Part shown: positions 807-29,365 of the stretch, one piece after another
How positions within the stretch are numbered: the first letter of the stretch is position 1
Layout of the letters: the number at the start of each line of letters is the position of its first letter
Assembly (NCBI GenBank): GCA_003246265.1
Contig: QKAU01000063.1
Span: forward strand, 1 to 44,938
Length of the DNA stretch: 44,938 bases
Direction of reading: 5' to 3'
From: Kiritimatiellales bacterium
Lineage (GTDB): Bacteria; Verrucomicrobiota; Kiritimatiellia; Kiritimatiellales; Pontiellaceae
Made by a program: the position numbers and the translations under genes
The notes under the pieces: generated by a model
The model's database searches: none
What the model saw: the letters and a program-made list of their open reading frames with translations, nothing else
What the model was told of the DNA's origin: nothing

Positions 807-1775
807 TTACGGCGTCTTGGTCCAGTGGCAGAGGTAGCAGTTTTCGATGCCGGGCTGGTTGTGGTTGACCGGGGCGCCGCCCCAGTACTTTTCGTGGAGG
901 AGGACGTCGTTGCCCCCTTCGTGGCAGGTCGCGCATCCGTCGCCGGGCGACGAGGTGTTGTGGCAGCCGATGCAGTGGGTCGGTTTGAATCCGGGGGCCG
1001 CCCAGCGGGCGGTATGCGAGCGCGGCCGCGTCTGCGCATGGCAGGAGGTGCAGGAGTCCTCCAGATGGCACACCATGCAGGCGGCGCGGTCCCAGGCCGC
1101 CACCGCGCCGTGGGAGTGGAGCCTCCAGAGATTGTTGTGGGTGGCCGGCTGCATGACGCTGTGGCACTCGGCGCAGGATTCCCCCGAATGGCAGACGGTG
1201 CACGAGGCGTCGGGCTGCGTGCCGAACATTCCATGCCGCTTGGTCCACGCCATGTTGTGGTTGCCGGGGCGGACATCGCGCTCGATGCCGACGTGGCAGG
1301 TTGAGCACGCTTCTCCGGAGGCATGGGCCTTTCCGCGGATCGCCAGCACCTCGGAGCGCTGGAGCGACGGTACGTGTTCGAGCTCCTTGTCCATGATCGA
1401 GGCATGGCACTCCTGGCACTTGCCCGCGAGGGATTCCGAGTGCACGAAGACAGGCGGCTGCGCTTCGGCGGGCGCGCTGGCAGGCTCGGCCTGGAGCATC
1501 GGCAGCTGCTGCTCCCGATGGCAGATGCCGCAGGTGTCGGGACCGACTTCCTCGGAGGATACCTCGTCGTGGCAGTCGGAGCAGGTTTCGTGGGTCGGCC
1601 GCCGGAAGGAGTCGGTACCGACCTCCCCGTGGCAGTCGGAACATTCCATGCCGTTTTCGGTCACGTGCAGGTCGTGGCTGAAGCGGAGGGCGTATTTCTC
1701 CTCCTCGTCGCACCCCGCCACCAGCAGGAGCGCCGCACCGAGCAGAATGGATTGGATGGCCCCCTTCGTTCTCAC
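807..1775 (-). CDS. dodecahaem c-type cytochrome lipoprotein
   Basis: A 322-residue exported cytochrome with twelve CxxCH motifs, at C45, C65, C82, C120, C157, C192, C201, C233, C242, C268, C281 and C313. The N-terminus is a lipoprotein signal with lipobox LVAGC, so Cys22 should be lipidated. A proline/alanine-rich linker (about residues 95-109) separates a three-haem head from the rest. Its ATG overlaps the TGA of the upstream barrel gene (ATGA, 1772-1775), implying translational coupling. In known porin-cytochrome conduits (MtrAB, OmbB-OmaB) a multihaem cytochrome sits inside or against an outer-membrane barrel; gene pairing suggests that role here. It is not a close MtrA look-alike (ten haems, no lipidation), so homology is open. 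Haem attachment is certain; partner and direction of electron flow are inferred. Confidence 0.88.
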   Translation of the reverse strand: MRTKGAIQSILLGAALLLVAGCDEEEKYALRFSHDLHVTENGMECSDCHGEVGTDSFRRPTHETCSDCHDEVSSEEVGPDTCGICHREQQLPMLQAEPASAPAEAQPPVFVHSESLAGKCQECHASIMDKELEHVPSLQRSEVLAIRGKAHASGEACSTCHVGIERDVRPGNHNMAWTKRHGMFGTQPDASCTVCHSGESCAECHSVMQPATHNNLWRLHSHGAVAAWDRAACMVCHLEDSCTSCHAQTRPRSHTARWAAPGFKPTHCIGCHNTSSPGDGCATCHEGGNDVLLHEKYWGGAPVNHNQPGIENCYLCHWTKTP

Positions 1776-3142
1776 AGCCGCACCTCGATGGATGTGCGGA
1801 CCCGCATGCCCAGGTCCGTCTCTTCGCTATCGTCTTCGATTTCGCCGGCCAGAAGCAACGACGTACGCTCCGAAATATTCCACCTGCCGCGCAGGAAGTA
1901 GGTGAAGGCGTCCGGCGACCGCTCCACGCGCGTGCCGTCCAGCGGATCGATGAGGGGCGGCGCCTGGTTGTCGTCCGTGACCACGGAATAGTCGGAAAGC
2001 TGGTAGTAGGAGTAGTCGACATAGGCGGCACCGGCCGAAACCTCCCAGAGGCGCCGGTAGCGGTAGCGGATGTCGCCGCTCAGCCCGAAGAAGCTGTCGC
2101 TCTCCTCCACATCCCAGTATTCGAGGGCGACGCTGGCGGTCAGCGCATCGGACGGTTCGAGGATGAAATTGAGGTCGTAGCGCTCGAAGCTGCGGTTGGT
2201 GAAGTCCGAATCGTCCGGCTGCTTCACCATGGCGCCGGGGGAGAGGTAGAGCCAGGGGAGCAGTTCGGTGGTGAAGCGCCCGTAGGCGGTGGTGTAGGGC
2301 TCCTCGTCGCCCAGGGCGTCGATCAGCGGGGAATAGACGCGGCTGTAGGCGTCGTAATCGCCCCAGCGCCGCACGCCGAGCATCGCGTCGAACACCTGGT
2401 CCGACATGGAGATGTAGTAGAGGTCGGCCCCGCCCATGCGGATGTCCTCGTTCATGAGCGAGAGGTAGGCGCGGCTCCGCAGCTCGTCCGAGACCTGCTG
2501 CTTCATGTCGAGGAAGATGCCGTCGTCCGTCGCGGACTCGCTGCCGTCGTGGTACTGCGCGTAGGTGGCGCGGCTGACATTGCCCCACCAGGGCCGGCCG
2601 ACCAGCGACACGCCTCCGAAGGCGTCGCCCGCGACGGAGCTGTAGTCGCTGACGGGCTTGCCGAGGAAGACGCGTCCGCCCAGCCGTCCGTTCTCGAACA
2701 GCATGGCCTGCGCGCCATCCATCTGGATGTAGTCGGCGACGTCGACGTACTGCCGGCCGTAGCGCATCGCCATCCGTTTTTCGGGATCATGCACATCGAC
2801 GTAGAACTGGAGGAGCCGCAGCTTGCCCTGCTCCCCGTCGTCGATGCTTCCGAAGGGATCGTAGGAGGAGGACGAGTCGCCATCGAGATCCGAGTGGAGC
2901 CGGCCCGACGTGTAGATCTCAACCCGCTTGTCCGCCAGGTTGCGGCCGCGGAGGTACCAGAAGCCGTAGGCGTCGTGGTCGTCGTAGGAACCCAGCCCGC
3001 GGTAGTCGTATGTGGCGCGGAATGAGCCCGAAACATCGGGCTGTACGCTCCCCTCCCCGCCCTGCGAAGGCAGAACGCCGAAAGCGAGACCCGCCGAAAG
3101 CAGGATCCGCATACACGGTTTCGGCATGAAGGAAGGCCTCAT
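1772..3142 (-). CDS. outer-membrane beta-barrel protein, probable partner of the multihaem cytochromes
   Basis: 456 residues with an N-terminal signal segment (RILLSAGLAFGVLPSQG) and then a long series of alternating short beta-type segments rich in Tyr, Trp, Arg and Asp, such as YLRGRNLADKRVEIYTSGRL and YAQYHDGSESATDDGIFLDM, ending in RTSIEVRL; this is the look of a porin of roughly 16-22 strands. There are no CxxCH motifs. It lies between two multihaem cytochrome genes, overlapping the dodecahaem gene by 4 bp. By analogy with MtrB/PioB and OmbB it would be the sheath of an outer-membrane electron conduit, although I see no MtrB-type CxxC near the N-terminus. The first ATG is preceded by GGAG; a second ATG five codons in is possible. 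Confidence 0.72.
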   Translation of the reverse strand: MRPSFMPKPCMRILLSAGLAFGVLPSQGGEGSVQPDVSGSFRATYDYRGLGSYDDHDAYGFWYLRGRNLADKRVEIYTSGRLHSDLDGDSSSSYDPFGSIDDGEQGKLRLLQFYVDVHDPEKRMAMRYGRQYVDVADYIQMDGAQAMLFENGRLGGRVFLGKPVSDYSSVAGDAFGGVSLVGRPWWGNVSRATYAQYHDGSESATDDGIFLDMKQQVSDELRSRAYLSLMNEDIRMGGADLYYISMSDQVFDAMLGVRRWGDYDAYSRVYSPLIDALGDEEPYTTAYGRFTTELLPWLYLSPGAMVKQPDDSDFTNRSFERYDLNFILEPSDALTASVALEYWDVEESDSFFGLSGDIRYRYRRLWEVSAGAAYVDYSYYQLSDYSVVTDDNQAPPLIDPLDGTRVERSPDAFTYFLRGRWNISERTSLLLAGEIEDDSEETDLGMRVRTSIEVRL

Positions 3143-3200: not shown

Positions 3201-5390
3201 CTAGTCTTCTATCGCACGGAAGAACCGGTTCGTGGTCCCGCGCATGGAGTCGAGCTGATAGACCCATCCGTTCGCGTTGGTCTGCGCCGGGCCCAGGTCG
3301 GACCATCCGCCCGCCTTGAGGCTGTCGATCGACTGGAACTGGACCGTCGTATTGGTGCCCTTGACCAGGTAGCCGAGCTCGGCCGCCGGGAGCAGGACCA
3401 GGTCGCTGTCCGGAACGCTGCCCGCATCGAGCGGATTGCTGCCGGCCTGCGCTTCGACAAGGTCGGAGAATCCGTCGTTGTCGGAGTCGGCCAGGTTCGG
3501 ATCGGTGCCGAGATTCTCTTCCTGGTCGTTGCTCAGGCCGTCGCCGTCGGCGTCATCGGCGCCGGACTGGCTGGTCAGGTCGCCGAAGTGCTCGATTTCC
3601 CACGAATCCACCAGGCCGTCGCGGTCGATGTCGATCCCGCCCTTGAGGTCGTCGATCGAGGCCCGCAGGATGGCCGCAATATATTTCGGGTTGTGCACAC
3701 CCAGGCTGCCGTCTTCCGAAACCATCGTCAGGTTGTAATTCGCCTTGTTGCGGCCTTGTCCCGCGGGTTCCGCTGCGACAAGAAGGGCCAATTCAGCCAT
3801 CATGTCGGCGATTTCCGACTGAACCCCTTCAACCACGCCGTCGAGGTCGTAGTCGGCTCCGCCGAAATCGAAGTTCTCGATTTCGCCATGGCAGCTGGTG
3901 CAGGTTTCGGTCAGGTGAACTGGTGCATTGGTGCCGTCATTGTAGGACAGCATGAAGGTATGGCCGCCAACCAGGTTCTTGGCATAGGCCGGCAGATCGG
4001 CCGGGGTTTCCTGCATATGGCATTGGGCGCAGGTTTCCTCCACGACCACACCATGCCTGGAACTGGGCATGTTCTGGCCGTATTCGATGGCGTTCTCGCC
4101 AAACAGCAGATCGCCCTGGACACCATGGTGCGGAGTGCGGCCCTGTGACGCCCTGTCGTTGGCTTCGTAACGGTCGTGATGGCAGGCCATGCAGACGAGG
4201 CCGGCACCGCCTGCGGTGATTTCCGTTCCGTTCGCCAGCGTGACGCTTGCGATTGCACGCGTCTGATGGGCATGGCCATCCCCGGAATGCGGATCATGGC
4301 AGGCGGCGCAGGTTATGCCCTCGTTGCCCGTACCTTCCGTCGGAACCATCTGCCCGAATTCGTTCATGCCGGGATCGTTGGCATCGATGTAGCCCTTGGT
4401 GCTATGGCACGGGGCGCATGAGCCGGTGGAACGGAACACATAGCCCTGGGCATGCAGCGTGGTCTTCCACTCGGCGGCCTTCACGTGGTGCGTCTTCTTG
4501 TCGTGGCACTGCGAGCAGTTGCCGGCACTGATGCTGACGCCGATCTTGCTGGTGTCGCCGCCGCTGCGCAGGTGCTCCTGGGCCGGGCCGTGGCAGTTTT
4601 CGCACTGCACGTTGGACTTCATCTGGAGCGCGACGGGCATGTCGTCCCAGTTGTTGGTGCCGAGCGTCGGCGGGAAGGTCCAGCCAAGGTCGGCCGCCAC
4701 GTCGTCGAAGCCGGCATTGACCGCTCCGGGTGTCTTGTCGTAGCCCAGTGCGTGGCAGGAGATGCAGCGGTCGCTGAAGTGCCCGGCCGGGTCGTTGATG
4801 TTGGCCTTGAGGGCCGTGGCATGGTGCGTTGCGAGATAGCCCTCCTGCTTGCTGGCATGGCAGAGCGTGCAGGCGGTGTAGCCCTGGCCCAGGAAGGCCG
4901 ATCCCACCACCTCGATGCTGGCCCCAAGCGTCTTGCTGGCCGTGATGGCCTGGGCCGAAACCGTGTAGGTGCCCTTGACGTCGGGAACCAGCACCTTGCG
5001 GTCGATGACGTTGAACGCCTTCTGGTCGCCGACGTTGTAGGTCGGCATGGACGGGGGCAGCGGGCTGTTGGTAATGGCCGCGGAGGAAGCCACCGGAAGA
5101 TCGTCCGCATCCAGCACGGAATCGAGCGACCAAACAGCCTGTGTCACCACCGTGCCGGTCTGCACCAGCAGTTCGAGGTAGACCGGCTGGCCAATCCCCA
5201 CGACCGGGTAACCGCTGGCTCCCTGCGTTCCAGTTGGAAGACCGTAGTCCGAAATCTCCTGCGGCGTGAGCGGACGCGTGTTGATCCGGATGTTCTGCGC
5301 CTGGACCCATCCTGCGCCAAGGCCCAGGAGAACCAGCGTAACCGCCACGATGCCCCCGAACCCGTGTCTTAGCTTGCGATGATGTTTCAT
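3201..5390 (-). CDS. secreted nonahaem cytochrome c with calcium-binding repeats
   Basis: 729 residues. A signal peptide (about 1-31, hydrophobic core VAVTLVLLGLGAGW) precedes a roughly 130-residue beta-type domain without haems. Nine CxxCH motifs follow at C174, C209, C263, C292, C325, C361, C400, C454 and C497. Residues about 565-580 (VHNPKYIAAIL) match the HNPxY helix typical of multihaem cytochromes of the NrfA/octahaem group. Three thrombospondin-type-3-like calcium loops (DIDRDGLVDS, DADGDGLSND, DSDNDGFSDL; 587-650) lead to a C-terminal module ending NRFFRAIED. Calcium repeats and this tail suggest location outside the cell or on its surface. It sits directly upstream of the barrel and dodecahaem genes, so it may be the outward terminal of the conduit. 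It could instead be an enzyme; the haem-binding order does not identify a known reductase. Confidence 0.85.
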   Translation of the reverse strand: MKHHRKLRHGFGGIVAVTLVLLGLGAGWVQAQNIRINTRPLTPQEISDYGLPTGTQGASGYPVVGIGQPVYLELLVQTGTVVTQAVWSLDSVLDADDLPVASSAAITNSPLPPSMPTYNVGDQKAFNVIDRKVLVPDVKGTYTVSAQAITASKTLGASIEVVGSAFLGQGYTACTLCHASKQEGYLATHHATALKANINDPAGHFSDRCISCHALGYDKTPGAVNAGFDDVAADLGWTFPPTLGTNNWDDMPVALQMKSNVQCENCHGPAQEHLRSGGDTSKIGVSISAGNCSQCHDKKTHHVKAAEWKTTLHAQGYVFRSTGSCAPCHSTKGYIDANDPGMNEFGQMVPTEGTGNEGITCAACHDPHSGDGHAHQTRAIASVTLANGTEITAGGAGLVCMACHHDRYEANDRASQGRTPHHGVQGDLLFGENAIEYGQNMPSSRHGVVVEETCAQCHMQETPADLPAYAKNLVGGHTFMLSYNDGTNAPVHLTETCTSCHGEIENFDFGGADYDLDGVVEGVQSEIADMMAELALLVAAEPAGQGRNKANYNLTMVSEDGSLGVHNPKYIAAILRASIDDLKGGIDIDRDGLVDSWEIEHFGDLTSQSGADDADGDGLSNDQEENLGTDPNLADSDNDGFSDLVEAQAGSNPLDAGSVPDSDLVLLPAAELGYLVKGTNTTVQFQSIDSLKAGGWSDLGPAQTNANGWVYQLDSMRGTTNRFFRAIED

Positions 5391-5451: not shown

Positions 5452-6537
5452 CTACACCGCCGCCACGGCATCGTGCAGGACGTTCTCCGCCGCCTGGCGG
5501 TTCTTGAACTGCGCCACCAGGTTTTCGGTTTCGCGGGCAATGATCGCCTCGCAGGTTTCCAGATCCCGTTCCCAGCGCCCCAGCGTCTGGTCCACCGAGG
5601 ATTGCAGCGCATCGATATCGTGCAGATGGACTCCGTCGAGCTCCGCCACGGCCGGATCGATGTCGCGCGGAACGGCAATGTCGATCATGACCAGGGGCCG
5701 TCCGCCCCGGCGGGCCATGACCGGTTCGAGGTCTTCGCGATGGATGATGGTGTCGGGACTGCCCGTGGAACTGATGACCACGTCCGCCCGCTCCATGGCC
5801 TCATGGATCCGGTCGAGCCCGATGGCTTCGCCTTGGAACTCCGCAGCCAGCTCGCGGGCCCGGCCCGGGGACCGGTTGGCGACGGTGACGGTGCAGTCGC
5901 CCTTCTTCTGCAGGTGGCGCAGGCAACATGCGGCCATCTCGCCGGCACCGATCATAAGGATGGAGTGGCGTTCGAGGCCGCCGGAGCCCAGCACCTCCCG
6001 TGCGTGCGCCACGGCCACGCCGCCCACGGAACGGGCTCCCCGGCCGATGGTTGTCTGCGTACGGATCGCCTTGGCGGTCTGTAGCGCCTTTTGGAACACG
6101 CTGTTGAGCACCTTGCCGGCCAGCTTCTCCAGGCGCGCGGCCTCGTAGGCGTCGCGGACCTGCCCGGTGATCTGTGTTTCGCCAAGAACCATGGAATCCA
6201 GGCCGCCCGCCACGCGAAAGAGGTGGCCGACCGCATCGAGGCCGCGATGGCAGTAGACGTGGGAAGCGAGGCTGGGCGCCTCGCGCGACAGGCATTCGAA
6301 CATGCGCGGCAGGTCCACCTTCCCGTCGCGCGCCGCCACGCCGTAGATTTCGACGCGGTTGCAGGTCCAGAGCACGACGACCTCCGCAAGGCCGGCCTTG
6401 AGCTGAAGCATACGGCTTACCTCGGTCCGGTCGGGATGCGCGACGGCCATGCGCTCGCGCACCTCCACGGGAGCCGTGCGATAGTTGACGCCAGCGACAA
6501 AGAATCTCTGCTCCAAGTTTTGCCGAGTCTTCTGCAT
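5452..6537 (-). CDS. hemA: glutamyl-tRNA reductase
   Basis: Reduces glutamyl-tRNA(Glu) with NADPH to glutamate-1-semialdehyde, the first committed step of C5-pathway tetrapyrrole synthesis, in the cytoplasm. The catalytic domain shows FFVAGVNYRTAPVEVRE and LWTCNRVEIYG, with nucleophile Cys59; GGLDSMVLGETQITGQV follows at about 110. The NADPH domain contains GAGEMA and VANRSPGRA. The ATG at 6537 is chosen because residues upstream in this frame have shadow composition and the family's N-terminus begins here. At 361 residues it is shorter than the roughly 420 of E. coli HemA: the C-terminal dimerisation helix region is cut to a short stub. Shorter forms exist in related phyla as far as I recall. 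It lies within a multihaem cytochrome operon, 31 bp after the tetrahaem gene, linking haem supply to cytochrome production. Confidence 0.93.
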   Translation of the reverse strand: MQKTRQNLEQRFFVAGVNYRTAPVEVRERMAVAHPDRTEVSRMLQLKAGLAEVVVLWTCNRVEIYGVAARDGKVDLPRMFECLSREAPSLASHVYCHRGLDAVGHLFRVAGGLDSMVLGETQITGQVRDAYEAARLEKLAGKVLNSVFQKALQTAKAIRTQTTIGRGARSVGGVAVAHAREVLGSGGLERHSILMIGAGEMAACCLRHLQKKGDCTVTVANRSPGRARELAAEFQGEAIGLDRIHEAMERADVVISSTGSPDTIIHREDLEPVMARRGGRPLVMIDIAVPRDIDPAVAELDGVHLHDIDALQSSVDQTLGRWERDLETCEAIIARETENLVAQFKNRQAAENVLHDAVAAV

Positions 6538-6568: not shown

Positions 6569-7138
6569 CTAGGGCCGCTCGTGCTTGACCTTCTCGTAAG
6601 CCTGAGCGACATCGAATCCGGTCTTCCCGCCGGAGGTGGTCGTGTAGCGTTCGGGGTTCCAAGTGGGGCTCGTGTCGTTGTGGCACAGGGTACAGGACTT
6701 TTCCTTGGCCGGATAGACCAGTCCGTTGGCGATCGCGTCCTCGCGCTTCTCCATGATGGCCTTGGCCTTGTAGTCCGCGCCGGGGCCGTGGCACGACTCG
6801 CAGGAGACGCCGTCTTCGATCGCAACGGCTTCGGACTGGCGGGCATCGGTGAAATAGTAGGCGGTCGAATGGCACTTCAGGCATTGGCCGCTGGTCTGGG
6901 GATTGTCGATGCCCAGCTTGGCCGCCACCGCCTTGGCCTCTTCCGTGCCGAGCAGCTCGAACGCCTTGGAGTGGGACATGGCCTGCCATTTCCCGTACTG
7001 GTTCCCCGTCTCGTCCTTCTTGTGGCACATCGCGCACTTCTTGGTGCCGATCAGCTTCGCGGGATCTCCCGCCTGGCCCACCGCGGAGGTCACCAGAACC
7101 ACCGCACCCACACTTGCCGCCATCACCATAGCCTTCAT
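6569..7138 (-). CDS. tetrahaem cytochrome c (cytochrome c554-like)
   Basis: 189 residues from the ATG at 7138 (AGGCAGG precedes it; the frame upstream is not signal-like). A signal peptide (MKAMVMAASVGAVVLVTSAVGQA) is followed by four CxxCH motifs at C35, C86, C113 and C149. The spacing and phrases such as GTKKCAMCHK, CLKCHSTAY, GVSCESCHGPG and KSCTLCHND fit the cytochrome c554 / tetrahaem CxxCH family, which shuttles electrons in the periplasm. It is the first structural gene after the Rrf2 regulator and precedes hemA. A likely job is a soluble periplasmic shuttle between the inner-membrane cytochromes encoded divergently and the outer-membrane complex encoded downstream. A catalytic role cannot be excluded. 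Confidence 0.87.
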   Translation of the reverse strand: MKAMVMAASVGAVVLVTSAVGQAGDPAKLIGTKKCAMCHKKDETGNQYGKWQAMSHSKAFELLGTEEAKAVAAKLGIDNPQTSGQCLKCHSTAYYFTDARQSEAVAIEDGVSCESCHGPGADYKAKAIMEKREDAIANGLVYPAKEKSCTLCHNDTSPTWNPERYTTTSGGKTGFDVAQAYEKVKHERP

Positions 7139-7321: not shown

Positions 7322-7807
7322 TCAGGCGTTAACGGGTTTCGCATGCTGGCCGCAGTTCATCTGGTGGCTCCCCTTCTGGCGATAGAACTCCAGCACGTCG
7401 GACAGCTTGGTCCTTTCCAGCTCGCGGCGCATCAGCTCCTTGTTCTTGGACCAGAACCGGTGCGTCGGGCATTCGCGCTCGTCGCTGCATCGCTCCGGAC
7501 CGAGGAGGCAGCAGTCGAGGAACTCCTCCCCCTCCAGGGCCACGCAGATCTCCAGCAGGCTGATCAGCTTGGCCGGACGGGCCAGCCAGATGCCGCCGCC
7601 GGTTCCGCGCTTGGACTCGACGATGCCGCAATCATTGAGTTTCTTGAATATTTTGGCCAGATAGGCTTGGGGCACGTTGGCGCATGTCGCCACGTCCTTG
7701 ATGTTGGCCGGGGGACTGGAGCAGCTGGCCAGGCAGGCCAGCGCCTGGATGGCATGCCCCGTGGTGCTGGATAACGACATCATGTGCGCAAGCGCCTTCC
7801 TGTTCAT
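7322..7807 (-). CDS. Rrf2-family transcriptional regulator, probable Fe-S sensor
   Basis: 161 residues with the Rrf2 layout: N-terminal winged helix (TTGHAIQALACLAS, IKDVATCANVPQAYLAKIFKKLNDCGIVESKRGTGGGIWLARP) and a following segment with clustered cysteines C99, C100, C107 and C113 (CCLLGPERCSDEREC, then PTHRFW). In IscR, NsrR and RsrR three cysteines at this place hold an Fe-S cluster that senses iron-sulphur status, nitric oxide or redox state; the spacing here (C-x6-C-x5-C from Cys100) is compatible. It stands at the head of the minus-strand cytochrome operon and faces the plus-strand cytochrome operon across 210 bp containing palindromes, so it probably controls both. The signal sensed is inferred only. 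Confidence 0.88.
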   Translation of the reverse strand: MNRKALAHMMSLSSTTGHAIQALACLASCSSPPANIKDVATCANVPQAYLAKIFKKLNDCGIVESKRGTGGGIWLARPAKLISLLEICVALEGEEFLDCCLLGPERCSDERECPTHRFWSKNKELMRRELERTKLSDVLEFYRQKGSHQMNCGQHAKPVNA

Positions 7808-8017: not shown

Positions 8018-9499
8018 ATGAAAAATCCACCCCCAAAGGGGCTCATACGGAACATGGTCAGCCTGTGCGGCATCGTGATGGCGGCGTTCGGCTTCGTTGC
8101 CGGCGCAGGGCTGATCGCGATCGACATCCAGACCCACTTCGACAATCCGTACACCGGCATCTTCACCTACATGGTCGTCCCCGCCCTGCTGGCGGGCGGG
8201 CTACTCCTCATCCTGCTGGGCGTGCTGCGGGAACGGCGCCGGCGCACCCGGAACGAAGCGGCCTGCGAGCGCCTGCCGGTCATCAACCTGAACGACCGCC
8301 GCCAGTTCGCCACCTTCGTCACGGTCGTGGTCGTCACGTTGCTGTTCATCGCCATCAGCGTGGTCGGAAGCTACCAGGCCTACCACTTCACCGAGTCGGT
8401 TGAATTCTGCGGCAAGACGTGCCACAGCGTCATGAAGCCGGAATACACCGCCTACCAGAATTCGCCGCATGCCAATGCCGGATGCACCCGCTGCCACATC
8501 GGACCCGGGGCCGACTTCTACGCCAAGTCGAAGCTCAACGGCCTCTACCAGGTCTATTCGACCCTCTTCAACAAGTACAGCCGCCCCATCCCCGCACCGG
8601 TGCACAACCTGCGTCCGGCCAAGGAGACCTGCTACACCTGCCATTGGCCGGAAAAATTCTTCGGGGCGGTGGAACTCAAGCGCACCTATTTCCGCGCCGA
8701 CGAGGAGAACAGCCCATGGACCATCCAGATGCTGCTCAAGGTCGGCGGGGGCAATCCGAAGCACGGCCACGCCCAGGGCATCCACTGGCACGTGTCGGGC
8801 AGGAACAAGATCGAATACATCGCCACCGATGAAAAGCGGCTCGAGATCCCCTGGGTGCGCATGACCGACGAAACCGGCAACACCACCATCTTCCAGACCT
8901 CCGGCAAGCAGCTTACCCCCGACCAGGTGGCGCAGGCCGAGATCCGCACCATGGACTGCATCGACTGCCACAACCGCCCGACTCACCAGTACCCCTCCCC
9001 CGAGCGGGTCCTCAACACCGCGCTGGCCAACGGCGTGCTCGATGGAGGCATCCCCGACATCAAGCGCAACGGCATCGAGGCGCTAGACGGCGGCTATGCC
9101 ACCGAGGCGGAGGCCATGGAGGCCATCCGGCAGAAGCTGGCGGACGCCTATCCCGAAGGCGGGCCGGCGATCGAAAAGGCAATTTCCACCATCCAGTACA
9201 TCTATTCGCAAACCATCTTCCCGGAGATGAAGGTGAGCTGGAGGGAGTATCCCGACCATATCGGCCACATGATCACGCCGGGCTGCTTCCGATGCCACAA
9301 CGGCGACCATCGGGATGCCGAAGGCCGGACCATTACGCGCGACTGCAACACCTGCCACTCCATCATCGCCCAGGGACCGGGCCGCAATGTCGAGAGCATC
9401 AGTTCCGGCGGACTCGACTTCCAGCATCCGGAGGATATCGACGAGGAGTGGAAGGAGACCCGTTGCGACGAGTGCCATACGGGAGTGCCGGTGCTGTAG
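8018..9499 (+). CDS. heptahaem NapC/NirT-type inner-membrane cytochrome, ImcH-like quinol dehydrogenase
   Basis: 493 residues with three predicted membrane helices (about 12-35, 49-70, 98-118) and a periplasmic domain with seven haem sites: C131-GKT-C135-H (a CX3CH motif), then CTRCH (about 156), CYTCH (about 207), CIDCH (314), CFRCH (423), CNTCH and CDECH. The order of three N-terminal helices, NapC-type first haems and seven haems overall matches Geobacter ImcH, the inner-membrane cytochrome required for reducing higher-potential extracellular acceptors. It would take electrons from menaquinol and pass them to periplasmic cytochromes. It is the first gene of the plus-strand operon, 38 bp before the next. 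Homology to ImcH is judged from architecture by eye. Confidence 0.86.
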   Translation: MKNPPPKGLIRNMVSLCGIVMAAFGFVAGAGLIAIDIQTHFDNPYTGIFTYMVVPALLAGGLLLILLGVLRERRRRTRNEAACERLPVINLNDRRQFATFVTVVVVTLLFIAISVVGSYQAYHFTESVEFCGKTCHSVMKPEYTAYQNSPHANAGCTRCHIGPGADFYAKSKLNGLYQVYSTLFNKYSRPIPAPVHNLRPAKETCYTCHWPEKFFGAVELKRTYFRADEENSPWTIQMLLKVGGGNPKHGHAQGIHWHVSGRNKIEYIATDEKRLEIPWVRMTDETGNTTIFQTSGKQLTPDQVAQAEIRTMDCIDCHNRPTHQYPSPERVLNTALANGVLDGGIPDIKRNGIEALDGGYATEAEAMEAIRQKLADAYPEGGPAIEKAISTIQYIYSQTIFPEMKVSWREYPDHIGHMITPGCFRCHNGDHRDAEGRTITRDCNTCHSIIAQGPGRNVESISSGGLDFQHPEDIDEEWKETRCDECHTGVPVL

Positions 9500-9537
9500 G
9501 CCGGTGAGTGGGAATTGGGATGTACAGGGGAAACAAC

Positions 9538-12354
9538 ATGGGGAAACAGTTTGCACCGGGCATGGTACGGGGAACGTCCGCCGTCCGTCTTTTTCTTGCC
9601 GCCCTCTGCTGCGGCCTTTTCGCCGGCGGCCCCGTGCCGACGGCCCGCGCGGGCAACGGCGACTGCCTGGACTGCCACAACGACCCGACCCTGACGATGG
9701 ATCGCAACGGCACGGAGGTGCCGGTATACGTCAACCCGGAGCGGTTCGGGCAATCGGTCCATGGCGCCCTGGAGTGCACCGACTGCCATGCCGATCTCGA
9801 AGGCGTTGAGCTTCCCCACGACACGCCGATCAGACCGGTAGATTGCCTCAGCTGCCACGACGACCAGGAGAAATCCTTCGCCGCCAGCATCCACGGCCAG
9901 GCGCTGGCCAAGGGCGATCCGCTCGCCCCGCGCTGCCAGAACTGCCACGGCGCCCATGAAATCCTCCCTGTCAACGACCGGAACGCCACGGTGGCCCCGC
10001 TCAAGATCCCCTTTCTGTGCGGCTCCTGCCACAGCGAAGGCACGGAAGTCATGCAGCAGCGGAACATCCCCGAGGACCACATCCTGGAAAACTACTCGGA
10101 GAGCATCCACGGCGAAGGCCTGTTCAAGAAGGGCCTGAGCAGCAGCGCCACCTGCATCTCCTGCCACACGGCGCACGACATCCTGCCGCATACCGACCCG
10201 AAGTCGTCGATCGCGCAGGATAACGTGGTCTCCACCTGCCTGCAGTGCCACTCGGAAATCGAACGCGTCCACCGCAAGGTGATCAACGGCGAATTGTGGG
10301 AAAAGCAACCGGAGACAATTCCGGTCTGTGTCGAGTGCCACCAGCCGCACAAGGCGCGCAAGGTGTTCTACGAACAGGGCGTGGCCAATGCGGACTGCCT
10401 CATGTGCCATGGGCGCAAGGACCTGGCGGCGGCCGACGGACGTTCGCTTTTCGTGGATGGCGATGAGCTGTCGCACTCCATGCACACGCAGGTGGCCTGC
10501 GCACAATGCCATACCGGTGTCACGCCCAGCCACGAGCGGGCCTGCGATACCGTCATCGCAAAGGTCGACTGCGCGGTCTGCCACAACGACCAGGTGGACC
10601 TGTACAACAAGAGCACCCATGGCCAACTCCATGCGGCGAACGACCCCAACGCCCCGGTCTGCACCGACTGCCACGGCACCCACGGCGTGCTGGGCAAGAC
10701 GGACACCAAGTCGCCAACCTACCCCACCAGCGTGCCCACGCTGTGCGCCAAGTGCCACCGCGAGGATGGCCAGGCCGCCATCCGCTACAAGGGGACGGAG
10801 CACCAGATCGTCAACAACTATGTGCAGAGCATCCATGGCAAGGGCCTGCTCCAGAGCGGCCTGTCCGTCACCGCGATGTGCACCAGCTGCCACACCGCGC
10901 ACAACGAGCTGCCGGCATCCCATGCCGACTCCAGCGTCAACCGCAACAACATCGCCGCCACCTGCGCCAAGTGCCACAAGGGCATCTATGAACAGTACCA
11001 GGCCAGCATCCACTCCCAGGAGAAGGCCGACGCATCGGACGAGACCGAACGGCCGGTCTGCAGCGACTGCCACACGGCGCACACCATCCAGCGGACCGAC
11101 ATGGACGATTTCAAGTTCGAGATCATGGACCGTTGCGGCAAGTGCCACACCGAGATCACGAAGACCTATTTCGACACCTTCCACGGCAAGGCCAACAAGC
11201 TCGGGTTCGACAAGGCGGCCAAATGCTACAATTGCCACGGTGCGCACGCCATCCTGCCGCCCGACGACCCCGACTCCACCCTGAGCCACCAGAACATCGT
11301 CCAGACATGCCAGCAGTGCCACCCGGGCGCCACCCGCAACTTCGCCGGGTACCTCACGCACGCCACACACCACGACCCGCAGAAGTACCCTTGGATCTTC
11401 TGGAGCTTCTGGGCCATGACCTCGCTACTCGTTGGCACCTTCACCTTCTTCGGCATCCACACGCTCCTCTGGCTGCCGCGCTCGCTCCATGCGCGCCGCG
11501 AACGCCTCGCCCACAAGCCGGCGCCCGACGAAAAGCTCTATGTCCGCTTCCCGTTCCTCTACCGGGTCCTCCACGCCACCATGATCGTCTGCTTCCTGAC
11601 GCTGGCCACCACCGGCATGACGCTGAAATTCGCCTACACGCCATGGGCGGTAGCCGTGTCGAAGGCGCTCGGCGGGTTCACCGTCACCAGCGTGCTCCAC
11701 CGGGCCGCCGCGATTGTGATGATTGCGATCTTCATCACCCACCTGATCGATCTGGTGCGCCGGAAGAAGACCGACTTCGGAACCTGGAAGGAACTCCTGT
11801 TCGGCCCGAACACCATGCTGCCGACCATGCGCGACATCCGCGAATTCATCGACACGATGAAATGGTATTTCCACAAGGGGCCGCGGCCACACTACGGGCG
11901 GTGGACCTATTGGGAGAAATTCGACTACCTCGCGGTCTTCTGGGGGATTGCGGTGATCGGCATGTCCGGACTGATCCTCTGGTTCCCCGAATTCTTCTCG
12001 CACGTCCTGCCGGGCTGGGCCATCAACGTCGCCACCATCATCCACAGCGACGAGGCGCTGCTCGCCGCCGGCTTCATTTTCACGATCCACTTCTTCAACA
12101 CGCACTTCCGTCCCGAGAAGTTCCCGATGGACAAGGTGATCTTCACCGGGCGCATGTCCGTCGAGGACCTCAAGCACGAGAAGCCGGGCGAATACGAGGA
12201 ACTGGTGCGTACCGGGAAGCTGGAGGAGCGCCTTGCCGATCCGCTGCCGGAACACAAGGTCAAGACCATCACCGTTTTTGCCTGGATCGCACTGGCCATC
12301 GGCATCAGCCTGATCGTTGGAATCATCTACGCGATGATCTTCGTCTATCGCTAG
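9538..12354 (+). CDS. CbcL-like fusion: 19-haem c-type domain plus b-type membrane cytochrome
   Basis: 938 residues from the ATG at 9538 (AGGGGA six bases before it; ATG 9520 and GTG 9508 are less likely). A signal peptide (SAVRLFLAALCCGLFAGG...ARA) leads into a periplasmic region (about 42-594) with 19 CxxCH motifs arranged as 1+6+2+6+4, two of the blocks being copies of one six-haem module. Six membrane helices follow (about 621-646, 676-698, 718-740, 797-819, 836-856, 912-935) with histidines suited to b haems, such as LHATMI, LHRAAA, THLIDL and IHFFNTH, as in the FdnI/HydC cytochrome b group. Geobacter CbcL, a quinol-linked inner-membrane cytochrome for low-potential extracellular respiration, has this plan with nine c haems. 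Nineteen is far more and could reach well across the periplasm. Confidence 0.87.
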   Translation: MGKQFAPGMVRGTSAVRLFLAALCCGLFAGGPVPTARAGNGDCLDCHNDPTLTMDRNGTEVPVYVNPERFGQSVHGALECTDCHADLEGVELPHDTPIRPVDCLSCHDDQEKSFAASIHGQALAKGDPLAPRCQNCHGAHEILPVNDRNATVAPLKIPFLCGSCHSEGTEVMQQRNIPEDHILENYSESIHGEGLFKKGLSSSATCISCHTAHDILPHTDPKSSIAQDNVVSTCLQCHSEIERVHRKVINGELWEKQPETIPVCVECHQPHKARKVFYEQGVANADCLMCHGRKDLAAADGRSLFVDGDELSHSMHTQVACAQCHTGVTPSHERACDTVIAKVDCAVCHNDQVDLYNKSTHGQLHAANDPNAPVCTDCHGTHGVLGKTDTKSPTYPTSVPTLCAKCHREDGQAAIRYKGTEHQIVNNYVQSIHGKGLLQSGLSVTAMCTSCHTAHNELPASHADSSVNRNNIAATCAKCHKGIYEQYQASIHSQEKADASDETERPVCSDCHTAHTIQRTDMDDFKFEIMDRCGKCHTEITKTYFDTFHGKANKLGFDKAAKCYNCHGAHAILPPDDPDSTLSHQNIVQTCQQCHPGATRNFAGYLTHATHHDPQKYPWIFWSFWAMTSLLVGTFTFFGIHTLLWLPRSLHARRERLAHKPAPDEKLYVRFPFLYRVLHATMIVCFLTLATTGMTLKFAYTPWAVAVSKALGGFTVTSVLHRAAAIVMIAIFITHLIDLVRRKKTDFGTWKELLFGPNTMLPTMRDIREFIDTMKWYFHKGPRPHYGRWTYWEKFDYLAVFWGIAVIGMSGLILWFPEFFSHVLPGWAINVATIIHSDEALLAAGFIFTIHFFNTHFRPEKFPMDKVIFTGRMSVEDLKHEKPGEYEELVRTGKLEERLADPLPEHKVKTITVFAWIALAIGISLIVGIIYAMIFVYR
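9754..10251 (+). repeat. six-haem module, copy 1
   Basis: A 166-residue unit of the 938-residue cytochrome running from SVHGALECTDCH to STCLQCH, with six CxxCH sites. It shares order and wording with copies 2 and 3: S-[VM]-H...CxxCH, then VDCxxCH, CxxCHGxH, CxxCH, CxxCH(T/G)xH and TCxxCH. Confidence 0.7.
10477..10977 (+). repeat. six-haem module, copy 2
   Basis: A 167-residue unit running from SMHTQVACAQCH to ATCAKCH. Like copy 1 it contains a SIHGxGL...GLS...CxSCHTAH segment (SIHGKGLLQSGLSVTAMC here, SIHGEGLFKKGLSSSATC there), showing duplication within the gene. Confidence 0.7.
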
Positions 12355-12391
12355 CGGGCAGCGGAAAAATACCGTCTGTGAGCAGGTCGCT

Positions 12392-12417
12392 AATACGCGT
12401 ACCGAATGGTACGTATT
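12392..12417 (+). promoter_or_regulatory. bulged hairpin between the two CbcL-like genes
   Basis: AATAC-GC-GTACC (12392-12403) pairs with GGTAC-GTATT (12408-12417) around the loop GAAT, giving a ten-pair stem with a two-base bulge, in the 102-bp gap. Only four T's lie around its end, so it is a weak terminator; it may tune expression between the two genes. Confidence 0.35.
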
Positions 12418-12456
12418 TTGGTTGCGTCGCCCCCGTTGCGTGACTACGTTGCCCGC

Positions 12457-14367
12457 ATGAAAATCAGATCCTTGTCCGCATACCGGCTATGTACGGCCCT
12501 GCTACTGTTCGCCGCGACGCCCGCCCTGCAGGCGCAAATCGGCGATGGTGAATGCTTCGGTTGCCACGGCGAAGCGGACGCCGACCGTCCCGTCGACAGG
12601 GCCCGCTTCATGCAATCCGTGCATGCCGACAACGAATGCACCAGCTGCCACGACGACATCAAGGAGGCGATGCACGATACGCCGCTGAAGAAGGTCGACT
12701 GTTCGGAATGCCACGACATCGAGTCGGAAATATACCTGCAAAGCTCCCACGGCGTGGCGTTGCGCCAGGGGCGCGACCAGGCCGCCACCTGCAAGGACTG
12801 CCACGGTGATTCGCACTACATCATCTCCTCCAAGAACACCGACTCGACCATCAGCCGGAAAAATATCGCCACCACCTGCGCCCGCTGCCATGGCGACACG
12901 GAGCAGATGAAGAAATACAATCTCAACCAGCTCGAACCGATCGTCAGCTACGAGCACTCCGTCCACGGCCTTGCCATCGGCCGCAACGACGGAACCCCGG
13001 CACCGGTCTGCACCGACTGCCACGGATCGCACAACCTGCACAAGTCGACCGACCCCAAATCCAAGCTCTTCTGGCAGAATCTCCCCGACACCTGCGGCAA
13101 GTGCCACGAAAACATCGCGCAGACCTATTGGCGAAGCATCCATGGCCAAGCCATCCGCAATGGCGTGCGCGACGCCCCATCCTGCACCGACTGCCATGGT
13201 GAACACACGATTGCCGCCGTCAAGCAGGCGCAATCGAGCGTCTACCCGACCCACATCGCGGAAACCTGCGGCCAATGCCACTCGGCCAGGCGCCTTGTCA
13301 CCAAGTACCGGCTTCCCGAGTTCGCCGTGGAAACCTACATGAACAGCTACCACGGCCTCTCCATGCGCCTCGGCTCCGTCACGGCCGCCAACTGCGCCTC
13401 CTGCCACGGCAAGCACGACATCCTCCCCTCGTCCGATCCGCGCTCCTCCATCCATCCCGACAACCTGCAGAAGACCTGCAGCGTCTGCCACGCCGGAGTC
13501 ACCGACCTCGTCGCCCGCGGGCAGATCCATTCCGGCACCCGGCCAGGCGCCGAACACAAGGCCACCGGCATCGTCCGCAGCATCTACATCTGGCTCTTCA
13601 TCGCCGTGCTCGGTGGCATGCTGGTCCACAACGGGCTCGACCTCTCCCGCAAGCTGCGCGAGCACCTGCTCAAGCTTAAGGAGGCAGGCATGCCCCACCG
13701 CATGACGCTCAACGAACGCATCCAGCACGCCATCCTCGCCATTACCTTCATCGTGCTCGGCTACACCGGCTTCGCACTAGTCAATCCCGATGCGTGGTGG
13801 GCCAGCCCCTTCGTCGGGAAGACCGATTGGCGCGGGTTCGGGCACAAGCTCATGGCCGTCGTCTTCGTCGCACTGAGCATCTACCATGTCATCTACATCA
13901 CCTGCACCAAGCGAGGCCGCTGGCAGATACGCCAGCTGGCGCCGCGCTGGTCCGACGTTGTCCATTTCAGCCAGATGCTCGCCTTCTACCTCGGCCGGCG
14001 CAAGGAGCGCGCGCAGTTCGAACACTACAGCTACATCGAGAAGGCCGAGTACTGGGCGCTCGTCTGGGGTTCCATCGTCATGGTCCTGACCGGAACGCTC
14101 ATGACCTACGAGGAGTGGACCCTCGCCCATTTCCCGAAATGGTTCTACGACGTCTGCACCGCCATCCACTTCTACGAGGCGATCCTGGCGTGCGCGGCCA
14201 TCGTGATCTGGCACTTCTACTTCGTGATGTTCGACCCCGAGGAATACCCGGTCAAGTGGACCTTCATCTCCGGACGGGAAGGCCCGTCCGACCACGGCCG
14301 CATACGCCCCTCCGGGCACGATGACCAGAACGCCGGCGACGGGAAATCGGCCGACGGCCCGCATTGA
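12457..14367 (+). CDS. CbcL-like fusion: 11-haem c-type domain plus b-type membrane cytochrome
   Basis: 636 residues from the ATG at 12457, which begins a clear signal peptide (SAYRLCTALLLFAATPALQA); the frame extends upstream but without signal character. Eleven CxxCH motifs fill about residues 33-346 in the order 1+6+4, the six being a copy of the module found twice in the preceding gene. Five membrane helices follow (about 371-393, 421-441, 461-481, 530-550, 569-592), with histidines in or near them (RIQHAIL, FGHKLM, IYHVIY, IHFYEA, IWHFYF) suited to b-haem ligation. It is a tandem paralogue of the upstream gene. The pair may serve acceptors of different potential, as ImcH and CbcL do in Geobacter. 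The C-terminal 30 residues are hydrophilic and appear disordered. Confidence 0.87.
   Translation: MKIRSLSAYRLCTALLLFAATPALQAQIGDGECFGCHGEADADRPVDRARFMQSVHADNECTSCHDDIKEAMHDTPLKKVDCSECHDIESEIYLQSSHGVALRQGRDQAATCKDCHGDSHYIISSKNTDSTISRKNIATTCARCHGDTEQMKKYNLNQLEPIVSYEHSVHGLAIGRNDGTPAPVCTDCHGSHNLHKSTDPKSKLFWQNLPDTCGKCHENIAQTYWRSIHGQAIRNGVRDAPSCTDCHGEHTIAAVKQAQSSVYPTHIAETCGQCHSARRLVTKYRLPEFAVETYMNSYHGLSMRLGSVTAANCASCHGKHDILPSSDPRSSIHPDNLQKTCSVCHAGVTDLVARGQIHSGTRPGAEHKATGIVRSIYIWLFIAVLGGMLVHNGLDLSRKLREHLLKLKEAGMPHRMTLNERIQHAILAITFIVLGYTGFALVNPDAWWASPFVGKTDWRGFGHKLMAVVFVALSIYHVIYITCTKRGRWQIRQLAPRWSDVVHFSQMLAFYLGRRKERAQFEHYSYIEKAEYWALVWGSIVMVLTGTLMTYEEWTLAHFPKWFYDVCTAIHFYEAILACAAIVIWHFYFVMFDPEEYPVKWTFISGREGPSDHGRIRPSGHDDQNAGDGKSADGPH
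12616..13107 (+). repeat. six-haem module, copy 3
   Basis: A 164-residue unit in the 636-residue cytochrome from SVHADNECTSCH to DTCGKCH, with six CxxCH sites. The opening S-V-H...EC-xx-CH, the VDCxxCH step and the closing TCxxCH match copies 1 and 2 of the neighbouring gene. Confidence 0.65.
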
Positions 14368-14544: not shown

Positions 14545-15906
14545 ATGCGCAACGAGGAAACCACTTGGCGCTGCTCCATCTGCGGCTACCTGCACTACGG
14601 CGACTCCCCGCCCGACGCCTGCCCCATCTGCGACGCGAAGGCCGAGGATTTCAAGGTGGTCGAAACCACCTTCCGCCCCGAACGCCATGATGTCGGTAAG
14701 GAGATGGTCGTCATCGTCGGCGCGGGAATCGCGGGGGTCTCGGCGGCGGAAGCCGTACGGGAACACGCGCCCGACGCCAAGATCGTCTTGGTTTCGAAGG
14801 AACAGGAGCTCCCCTACCACCGCCTCAACCTCACCCGCCTGCTGGCCGGCGAGATCACCGAAAGCACCCTTCCGCTCCACAAGGAGGAGTGGTACGCGGA
14901 GCGGCAGATCGACTTCCGCCGCGGCGTCGCGGCCACCGACATCGTGCTCGCCGAAAAGACGGTGCGGCTGGACGACGGCACCTCCCTGCCCTTCGACAAG
15001 CTGATCGTCACCACTGGGGCCCACCCCTACATGCCCCCGATCCCCGGCTCCGGCCTGGAGAACGTCTTCACCCTGAGGACGGCAGTGGATGCACGCAACG
15101 TGCTGGCCGCCATCCAGCCCGAATCCGACGTGGTCTGCATCGGCGGCGGCCTGCTGGGGCTCGAAACGGCCGGGGCGCTTGCGAAGCGGGGCGCCCATGT
15201 CACGGCGCTCGAGGCCTTCGGCCACCTGATGCCTCGGCAGCTCAACCCAGAGGGAAGCCGCGTACTGGAGCGGCACCTCGCCACCCTCGGTATCCAAGTC
15301 GTTACCGGCGCCATCGCCGACTGCATCGTGGGCGACGGATCGGCCAGCGGCGTCCACCTCAAGCGCGGCCAGCTGGTCCCTGCGGAGGTCGTCGTGGTCG
15401 CCGCCGGCGACCGCCCCAACACGGAGCTGTTCGAGCGGGCGGGCCTGACGGTCAAGAACGGCGTGCTGGTCGACAATTTCCTGCGCACCTCGAATCCCGA
15501 CATCTTCGCCGCCGGCGACGTATGCGAGCACGACGGGGTGCTCTACGGCGCGTGGTCGCCTGCCATGTACCAGGGCAAGATCGCCGGCATGAACGCCGCC
15601 GGCGTTCCCACCGAGTTCGGCGGGATTCCGCGCTCGCACCTGCTCAAGGTGCTCGGCAAGCCAATGTTCAGCATCGGCACGGTGGTGGCGACCGACGGAA
15701 GCTACCAGGCAATCGAGGACCATGCCGACGAGGGCTACCGCCTCTTCATGCTGCGCGACGGCCGCTTCGTCGGCTGCCTGCTGATCGGGAAGATCAAGCT
15801 GATGAAGGCGGTGCGCAAGGCCATCCAGGCGCGCATCGACGTGCGCGGGCTGCTCGGACCGAACCCGTCGGCGCAAGAAATTGCCGCCCACCTGGCCACG
15901 CTATAG
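14545..15906 (+). CDS. rubredoxin-fused FAD-dependent NAD(P)H oxidoreductase
   Basis: 453 residues. Residues 8-35 form a rubredoxin-type iron site, C10-SI-C13 and C26-PI-C29 (WRCSICGYLHYG...DACPICDA), of the short form also seen at the end of rubrerythrins. A pyridine-nucleotide-disulphide-type reductase follows: FAD motif VIVGAGIAGVSAAEA, second nucleotide motif CIGGGLLGLETAGAL, and TSNPDIFAAGDVCEH near the end. It resembles NirB N-terminal domains and NADH:rubredoxin reductases. The domain order suggests that electrons pass from NAD(P)H via FAD to the attached iron site, perhaps for oxygen or peroxide detoxification in an anaerobe. It is cytoplasmic with no signal peptide. Its last 6 bp overlap the convergent neighbour. 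Confidence 0.88.
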   Translation: MRNEETTWRCSICGYLHYGDSPPDACPICDAKAEDFKVVETTFRPERHDVGKEMVVIVGAGIAGVSAAEAVREHAPDAKIVLVSKEQELPYHRLNLTRLLAGEITESTLPLHKEEWYAERQIDFRRGVAATDIVLAEKTVRLDDGTSLPFDKLIVTTGAHPYMPPIPGSGLENVFTLRTAVDARNVLAAIQPESDVVCIGGGLLGLETAGALAKRGAHVTALEAFGHLMPRQLNPEGSRVLERHLATLGIQVVTGAIADCIVGDGSASGVHLKRGQLVPAEVVVVAAGDRPNTELFERAGLTVKNGVLVDNFLRTSNPDIFAAGDVCEHDGVLYGAWSPAMYQGKIAGMNAAGVPTEFGGIPRSHLLKVLGKPMFSIGTVVATDGSYQAIEDHADEGYRLFMLRDGRFVGCLLIGKIKLMKAVRKAIQARIDVRGLLGPNPSAQEIAAHLATL

Positions 15907-25799: not shown

Positions 25800-26719
25800 G
25801 GCGGCCCGTCGGCGGATTTCGCGGGGGGGGCCTCGCGCCCTTCGGGACCGATGTAGAAGCGCGTAGTATTGTAGGCCAGATCGATGTCCGGTTCCGCGGC
25901 GAAGGCGTCGAGGATCTCCTCCCACATCTTCTGCTCGGTGCTGCGGCGCTGGCGGGGATCGACGAGGTACCGGATGGTAAGCAGGACGCCGCTGTCCTTT
26001 ACCGTGGTGTAGACGGTGGGGGTGAGCTTGCCGGCGACGATCAGGTATTTCTTGGCCGCCTGCCGGATCTGGGCCTGGGCCCCCTGCGAGAGGTACTCCG
26101 CGTTGTCCTTGCCGATCCGCAGCAGCAGCTCCTTGGCCTTCTTCCAGTTGCTCTCGAAGGTGACCAGCACGGGCACCTCGTTCCAGATGTATTCGAAGCC
26201 GATGTGGTAGTTGGCCAGCGGCGCCCGCAGCACCATGCTGTTGGGTACGTGGATGATGCGGCCGGTGCTCTGGTCGGCATCGACCCAGTTGCCCACCTCG
26301 ACAATGCTGAACTGGAAGAGGCGGATGTCGATGACGTCGCCCTTGAACTCGGCCAGCTGGATGCGGTCGCCCACCTTGAACGGTTTGCGCGCGGAAATGA
26401 AGAAGAAGCCGGCCATGTTGGCGATGGTGTCGTGCAGGGCGACCGCCAGGCCGGCGCTGGCCAGGCCGAGGAAGGTGCCCAGCGAGGCCATCCCCTTGAA
26501 CCAGATCGAACCGATGACGGCCACCAGGAGGAAGTTGAGGATGTAGTTGGCCGTCTTGCGGGCGTGGTAGCGCCGCTTGTCGTCGTCGAACCGGCGGTTG
26601 ACCAGCATGGCGGCCAGCAGCTTGAGCAGGACGAAGAGTGCCAGCGCCAAAGCGGTATAGGAAAGGTGCTCGGCCAACCTGACCGATATATTGAGCAGTT
26701 CTGCGAGATGTTCAGCCAT
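25796..26719 (-). CDS. MscS-family mechanosensitive channel
   Basis: 307 residues from the ATG at 26719 (GGAGG six bases upstream). Three membrane helices (about 18-40, 58-76, 80-105) are followed by the cytoplasmic beta domain (ARKPFKVGDRIQLAEFKGDVIDI). The pore helix segment GLASAGLAVALHDTIANMAG has the Gly/Ala packing pattern of MscS TM3. MscS channels release solutes at membrane tension on hypo-osmotic shock. It heads a two-gene operon with the downstream membrane protein gene. Confidence 0.88.
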   Translation of the reverse strand: MAEHLAELLNISVRLAEHLSYTALALALFVLLKLLAAMLVNRRFDDDKRRYHARKTANYILNFLLVAVIGSIWFKGMASLGTFLGLASAGLAVALHDTIANMAGFFFISARKPFKVGDRIQLAEFKGDVIDIRLFQFSIVEVGNWVDADQSTGRIIHVPNSMVLRAPLANYHIGFEYIWNEVPVLVTFESNWKKAKELLLRIGKDNAEYLSQGAQAQIRQAAKKYLIVAGKLTPTVYTTVKDSGVLLTIRYLVDPRQRRSTEQKMWEEILDAFAAEPDIDLAYNTTRFYIGPEGREAPPAKSADGPP

Positions 26720-26947
26720 ATCGATCCTCCCCTGCTGAATAGCCGGTGCGGCCGGTTTTGTAAAGCACATCAGCCATTTCCCGGGGTTGATATCGCTTGG
26801 CCTCCTCGTCCCGCAGCAGGTAATGGCTGAGGACAGCCGGTGCTGGGGCATCGGCGCCGCCCGCATCCAGGAGGATTTTTTCATCCGGGTTCTGAAACAG
26901 GCGAGATCAAGCGCATGGTGCTTGTGCCGCAACAGGTCGCTCGTGGT
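26720..26947. other. non-coding gap upstream of the MscS-like gene
   Basis: I see no gene or strong structure here. It includes the upstream region of the channel gene, and composition shifts from GC-rich to AT-richer toward 27 kb, marking the edge of the island. Confidence 0.4.
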
Positions 26948-27121
26948 TCAATCAACGCGAATGGGGGGTAGCTTTTCCGAGAGCAATGCCGGAGCGGTTT
27001 CGTCGCTAACGGTTGGTTTGGATAAATCAACCACCGGCTCGATTGGCGCATCCATCTCCTCCAGCGCAACCGTTTCAGCCTTTTTACTGTTTTTGCGCTT
27101 GGATCTCTTGCTGTCTTTTTC
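26948..27121 (-). other. protein-like tail in a shifted frame after the 310-residue secreted protein
   Basis: In the frame shifted by one base from the gene at 27084-28016, about 57 codons read as a plausible protein end: basic (KDSKRSKRKNSKK) then acidic and proline-rich (ALEEMDAPIEPVVDLSKP), ending in LPPIRVD and TGA at 26948-26950. Removing one A from the five-A run complementary to 27116-27120 would join it to the upstream gene. It may be a frameshifted C-terminus, a programmed-frameshift product or a sequencing error. Confidence 0.35.
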
Positions 27122-28870: not shown

Positions 28871-28920
28871 TATATTTTCCTCATGTGATGCCTACTTACT
28901 AATGGTCTCATAATTATCTA

Positions 28921-28987
28921 GACAGGATAACGGGATCGACGGGATTGAATTCCAGCAAATCCATCCTGGACATCCTGTAATCCTGTC
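28921..28987. repeat. palindromic GACAGGAT...ATCCTGTC intergenic repeat
   Basis: A 67-bp unit with terminal arms GACAGGAT (28921-28928) and ATCCTGTC (28980-28987) and internal variants of the same motif (CGGGATCGACGGGATT; CATCCTGGACATCCTGTAAT). Repeats of this 'ACAGGAT/ATCCTGT' type are scattered between genes in many bacteria. One copy is seen here, at the edge of the AT-rich island. Confidence 0.5.
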
Positions 28988-29322
28988 GAAATAAAAACAA
29001 GAAGACTAGTAACTGTCTGATGCGCTTGGTTTTCATCCTTTTTTCCGCAATAGACGATGCAACGGTTCTACCCCCCCCATTATTTAGTCAATACTTATTC
29101 GATACTTCATTAGTTTACTGTATTTTTTACTATACTAAAGTAACGAGTCTCCACACGCGCGCAGTAAAGAATGCAGTGCAATCGAAAGACTCGAGACAAT
29201 GCATATTTGTCTGCGTGCGGAATTCAGCTGCGCCCGGAGGTTGATGGACGGATCTATCTCCGCATGGTTCCGGCAAGGAAACCCCCTTCTCCGAAATCTA
29301 TAAGCTACTATGGTTGCATTGC

Positions 29323-29360: not shown

Positions 29361-29365
29361 AGTCC

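Follow-up and report, generated by a model that had tools for sequence, protein, structure and literature searches.

Organization of the multihaem gene cluster

The window, i.e. the whole stretch of DNA that was analysed, comprises 44,938 nt of contig QKAU01000063.1 from a Kiritimatiellales bacterium (positions 1 to 44,938). At its left end, genes for an Rrf2-type regulator, a c554-like cytochrome, HemA, a nine-haem cytochrome, a beta-barrel protein, and a 12-haem lipoprotein follow each other on the minus strand, named here in the order of transcription. Genes for an NrfH-like protein and for 19-haem and 11-haem cytochromes with b561 domains are located on the plus strand, divergent from the cytochrome and barrel genes on the minus strand. 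The features are listed below, with the evidence in parentheses.

807..1775 (-), 12-haem lipoprotein, proposed trans-barrel wire (12 CxxCH motifs, lipobox Cys22)
1772..1775 (-), 4-bp overlap GTGA of the barrel stop codon TGA and the lipoprotein start codon GTG (sequence)
1772..3142 (-), outer-membrane beta-barrel with signal peptide, proposed sheath (22-strand AlphaFold2 model, no family match)
3201..5390 (-), secreted nine-haem cytochrome, proposed outer-surface terminal cytochrome (nine CxxCH motifs, signal peptide)
5452..6537 (-), glutamyl-tRNA reductase HemA, haem synthesis (PF05201/PF01488; start from codon model)
6569..7138 (-), four-haem cytochrome c554-like protein, proposed periplasmic shuttle (PF13435, 6.6e-16)
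7322..7807 (-), Rrf2-family regulator (TIGR00738 above cut-off; PF02082, 1.6e-29)
8018..9499 (+), NrfH/NapC-like membrane-anchored six-haem cytochrome, proposed quinol-oxidising entry (PF03264, 1.2e-11)
9508..12354 (+), fusion of a 19-haem cytochrome and a b561-like membrane domain (19 CxxCH motifs; PF14537; PF01292 sub-threshold)
12457..14367 (+), fusion of an 11-haem cytochrome and a cytochrome b561 domain (11 CxxCH motifs; PF01292, 8.7e-17)

A sequence-only reading of this region had proposed that barrel and lipoprotein form a porin-cytochrome pair, with genes overlapping by four base pairs and preceded by that of a secreted cytochrome. Overlap and gene order were confirmed: positions 1772-1775 read GTGA on the minus strand, and the gene for the nine-haem cytochrome (3201-5390) is located upstream of the barrel gene.

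The two b561-fused cytochromes (window positions 9508-14367) are encoded in tandem, show about 29% mutual identity, and possibly constitute a large quinol-cytochrome module. Just downstream of the multihaem genes, a rubredoxin-like domain fused to an FAD/NAD oxidoreductase is encoded (14545-15906). Elsewhere in the window, the G+C content drops from about 0.64 to 0.50-0.53 in two stretches (26001-30000 and 42001-44000), which suggests recent acquisitions.

Conservation and distribution of the unit

Barrel loci were found 17 times in 16 genomes, 14 of them from Kiritimatiellae and two from another class of the Verrucomicrobiota. A multihaem lipoprotein gene is the next gene downstream in all 17, two of these genes being cut by contig ends. 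Since the pairing of barrel and multihaem lipoprotein recurs in every homologous locus, it is not due to chance. A start codon at the same -4 offset as in the window is available in 16 of the 17 loci, with other nearby starts possible in some. The barrel itself is rare: of 346 genomes from the class Kiritimatiellae, 14 have it, as do two of 197 from the further class; in an even sample of the phylum, the barrel profile matched these two classes only. Barrel identity is about 41-69% within the class and about 24-26% to the members of the other class. Such a patchy distribution combined with tight linkage is the pattern expected of a functional unit. Two weak barrel matches (E 0.05-0.07) were rejected: the one in genome G053 is a fragment of 41 positions, and the one in G381 belongs to an ORF resembling TilS, without a multihaem gene next to it.

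In all ten Kiritimatiellae loci that are fully readable at this position, an 8-9-haem cytochrome is encoded directly before the barrel, and the C-terminal part of such a protein is visible in an eleventh. The position expected for the secreted cytochrome in locus L011 (10853-13096) consists of N (masked). Genome G026 harbors a second barrel gene, which is followed by the gene for a 20-haem lipoprotein (locus L010, 7646-10428) and directly preceded by ResB and CcsA genes, not by an 8-9-haem cytochrome gene. In the other class, barrel and lipoprotein genes are still paired in G423. Barrel, lipoprotein, and a nine-haem homologue with 37% identity occur together in G626, but in a different order, the nine-haem gene being located just downstream; the gap of about 100 bp between barrel and lipoprotein genes in this genome counts against a conduit made of the two proteins.

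The surroundings of the unit are partly conserved as well. The gene for the four-haem c554-like protein remains close to the trio in another class, too. An NrfH-like gene is present in five of the six barrel-bearing genomes of the genus vs two of 22 others, counts to which physical linkage contributes. Genes for haem supply were detected beside the unit in several families, namely those for HemA, HemC, CcsB/CcsA, ResB, AhbC, AhbD, HemL, and a CysG N-terminal domain. In loci L045 (G423), L048 (G626), L021, and L023, haem genes of the siroheme route together with CcsA/CcsB and ResB genes adjoin the trio or pair.

A haem-dense lipoprotein of variable length

The lipoprotein ORF (807-1775, minus strand) starts with GTG and specifies 322 amino acids. 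The lipidation predicted at Cys22 agrees with the lipobox LVAG|C22. Twelve haems had also been claimed; the protein of the window indeed has exactly 12 CxxCH motifs, but the number is not fixed, 18, 20 or 22 being found in relatives. The window protein has 25.1 residues per haem, 15 spare histidines, and the lipobox Cys as its single non-haem Cys. In 13 of 14 members of the family, this Cys is likewise the only one outside of haem motifs, and the fourteenth has two more, forming CX3CH; the G626 lipoprotein contains 11 CxxCH motifs plus one CX3CH. Spare histidines are sufficient for bis-His ligation in every member. Across the family, 22-30 residues are present per haem, compared to about 33 for MtrA homologues and 26 for the wires of PCC3, and a low value has been regarded as characteristic of conductive wires (PMC5566968). 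Calculated from the sequences, the ratio of the lipoproteins appears wire-like, at or below that of the MtrA homologues. The window protein scored 21.2 bits against the MtrA/DmsE-type decahaem model TIGR03508, far from its cut-off of 192.2. Matches in the PDB (ActA, c7-type) covered the first haems only. For the 12-haem protein, AlphaFold2 gave a pLDDT of 40 and a pTM of 0.20, and no shape is claimed.

Comparison of the Kiritimatiellae lipoproteins revealed a constant and a variable part. The spacing of haems 1-9 is kept (20, 17-18, 37-42, 37, 35, 9, 32, 9), while beyond haem 9 the tail grows by di-haem modules, resulting in 12, 18, 20 or 22 haems. These modules follow roughly the pattern AGWRxxHCxxCHxGxxxxxxCxxCHGG with spacings of 24-26 and 12-13 in G084, G102, G093, G106, and G112. 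The second copy in G026 has modules of a different kind, with spacings of 28-29 and 9, and for this reason the tail seems to have been lengthened at least twice, independently. Because the length of the barrel is constant whatever the length of the tail, the extra haems probably lie outside of the barrel. Distances between barrels and between lipoproteins are correlated with r = 0.91, a value inflated by shared species history. It is conceivable, if rather doubtful, that the lipoprotein acts as a length-adjustable, lipid-anchored wire, with the nine-haem core held in a constant barrel and di-haem duplications tuning its reach, so that it would span most of the periplasm or project from the cell.

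The location of the lipid anchor needs to be considered. In E. coli, Asp at position +2 after the lipidated Cys is a signal for retention in the inner membrane. The window lipoprotein reads GCDEE at this site, with Asp at +2, which counts against an outer-membrane conduit. Together with a haem-rich tail long enough in the longer members to bridge the space, it would fit a periplasmic hub anchored in the inner membrane, its tail reaching outward from inside and feeding another outer-membrane partner. The +2 residue varies in the family, however, being E, K, N or L in the relatives, and the lipoprotein gene is coupled to that of the barrel instead of an inner-membrane gene, the membrane-bound quinol cytochromes having genes of their own. 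We therefore judge such a hub to be very unlikely. A Pal-like protein of the same genome has Lys at +2, a single case that does not settle lipoprotein sorting.

The barrel

The barrel ORF (1772-3142, minus strand) encodes 456 amino acids including a signal peptide. Its sole Cys (C10) resides in the signal peptide, so that the mature barrel lacks CxxC, as had been noted before. An AlphaFold2 model calculated with ten homologues shows 22 strands at moderate confidence (pLDDT 73.9). A barrel too narrow for a cytochrome, considered in the sequence-only reading as an argument against the pair, is not what the model predicts: according to the standard barrel formula, 22 strands correspond to a backbone diameter of about 39-42 A, and with moderate confidence this would be wide enough to take a cytochrome. 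TonB receptors have a diameter like that of a 22-strand barrel and hold a plug. Hydropathy alternates in each modelled strand, and residues on the side assigned to the lumen are more conserved (mean entropy 0.76 vs 1.13 bits, p = 2e-5); the two sides were assigned by hydropathy, so that this contrast is supportive only.

Searches with 15 diverse members matched no Pfam or NCBIfam family meaningfully. MtrB_PioB (PF11854) was not detected in the 15 barrel homologues at E values up to 1, nor in the genome of the window at E values up to 0.1, and no porin family of Pfam or NCBIfam, substrate-specific ones included, matched at a meaningful level. NCBIfam yielded no match to the barrel, the presence of an ExtI model in this collection not being established. 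A search of PDB sequences with the barrel profile found nothing, and two RNA-binding PDB matches of a single barrel sequence (E 0.04) were rejected as chance. In fold searches with Foldseek and VIA, OprD/Occ porins, LamB/ScrY, and TonB receptors came out best, with identities of about 10%. MtrB was not among the matches listed, which has no bearing either way.

These fold matches, and the fact that 22-strand barrels also act as transporters, could indicate an ordinary porin for solutes or metals, which is co-transcribed with surface cytochromes and beside which the lipoprotein serves as an electron store at the surface or in the periplasm. At such low identity the similarity to OprD-type porins and TonB receptors reads as generic for barrels, and it is not accompanied by a sequence match to any porin family. 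A general porin would also hardly be expected to pair strictly with a wire-like lipoprotein in 17 of 17 loci. An ordinary porin is accordingly considered unlikely.

The secreted nine-haem cytochrome

The product of the gene at 3201-5390 (minus strand) combines an N-terminal non-haem domain with C-terminal TSP3 repeats, and matches PF22113 (MtrC/MtrF domain II/IV) at 1.7e-13 and TSP3_bac at 1.8e-14. A nine-haem homologue in locus L012 (6827-9148) matches PF02335 (NrfA-type cytochrome c552) at 2.9e-9, which hints at an enzyme-like haem arrangement. This match and the occurrence of c554-type domains raise the question whether the unit could be a system of multihaem enzymes acting outside the cell, e.g. 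for the reduction of nitrite, sulfite or oxyanions, with the nine-haem protein as catalyst. Against this, all haem motifs counted in the window protein are CxxCH, a catalytic motif of the CxxCK type was not noted, and PF02335 was reached at 0.072 only. We give such an enzyme system hardly any weight; it would in any case be compatible with a conduit, since it concerns the acceptor.

Comparison with known porin-cytochrome systems

Several known systems resemble the unit described here. MtrCAB, MtoAB, and PioAB share with it a barrel, a compact multihaem wire with few residues per haem and, in the case of MtrC, a multihaem protein at the outer surface. In contrast to these systems, the barrel does not match PF11854, and the wire is lipidated and carries 12-22 haems instead of being a non-lipidated decahaem cytochrome. 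MtrB, the sheath of MtrA, has 26 strands (PMC7198977), compared to 22 in our moderate-confidence model. In OmbB-OmaB-OmcB of Geobacter, a barrel is again combined with multihaem proteins, one of which is a 12-haem lipoprotein. The 12-haem lipoprotein of the window is set apart by description, being short (about 300 amino acids) and wire-like; the unit lacks a separate eight-haem periplasmic partner, and its other cytochrome is a non-lipidated protein. The earlier reading had seen differences from known types in the haem number, the lipidation at Cys22, and the missing CxxC. Haem number and missing CxxC alone are not distinguishing, OmcB also being a 12-haem lipoprotein. The unit is predicted to work like MtrCAB or OmbB-OmaB-OmcB, yet by sequence it does not belong to the Mtr family.

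Within the same phylum as defined by GTDB, a putative porin-multihaem cytochrome c system has been described for freshwater Verrucomicrobia. Its porin, likewise of the barrel type, has at least 20 transmembrane motifs, its partner is periplasmic with eight haems, an extracellular multihaem gene is sometimes present, and it occurs in lineages such as Opitutus (He et al. 2017, PMC5615132). Since our profile found nothing in the sample of these reported lineages, the barrel is probably a different one, set apart by distribution and not by sequence comparison. PCC3 of Fe(II) oxidisers is similar in comprising a barrel together with repeat-containing multihaem proteins, both extracellular and periplasmic, that have about 26 residues per haem; it differs by barrels with up to 42 predicted strands, vs 22 in our model, by higher haem counts, and by a characteristic inner-membrane protein in the unit (PMC5566968). 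No gene for such a protein adjoins the trio of the window, b561-type proteins being encoded nearby instead, a comparison made without PCC3 sequences.

A proposed route for electrons

The unit is real and conserved, and it most likely represents a new type of porin-cytochrome conduit. The proposed pair agrees with the gene order, with the conservation of the unit, with the wide 22-strand model, and with the wire-like haem density, as well as with the quinol-cytochrome genes nearby. Barrel and 12-haem lipoprotein probably constitute a conduit through the outer membrane, and the secreted nine-haem protein is probably the cytochrome exchanging electrons at its outer surface. Complex formation, orientation, and acceptor are what we infer for this conduit, and the route of the electrons is deduced from gene content. 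Quinol oxidation would fall to the multihaem proteins of the NrfH-like and b561 types, and the four-haem c554-like protein may transfer the electrons to the lipoprotein. The barrel would sheathe the conserved nine-haem core of the lipoprotein across the outer membrane, the variable di-haem tail reaching beyond it, and the electrons could exit via the nine-haem protein to an extracellular acceptor such as Fe(III), Mn(IV), humics or the like. That electrons are exported and not taken up is an assumption, made because cultured relatives are anaerobic and fermentative (PMC7356697). Growth of cultured Pontiella is described as fermentative only (PMC7356697), which counts against a conduit.

In the literature on multihaem conduits in Kiritimatiellota and Pontiella, searched with most subscription journals and preprints outside its range, no account of the unit was found. 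Its most surprising part is the modular haem tail. If the proposal is true, a class seen chiefly as fermenters that degrade polysaccharides would possess a sequence-unrelated way of moving electrons through the outer membrane. How AQDS, metals, and sulfur get reduced by cultured Kiritimatiellales has been stated to be unclear (PMC7356697), and the unit is a concrete candidate for these reductions in related lineages. The natural series of 12, 18, 20, and 22 haems on one type of barrel would also make the length of a wire experimentally testable.
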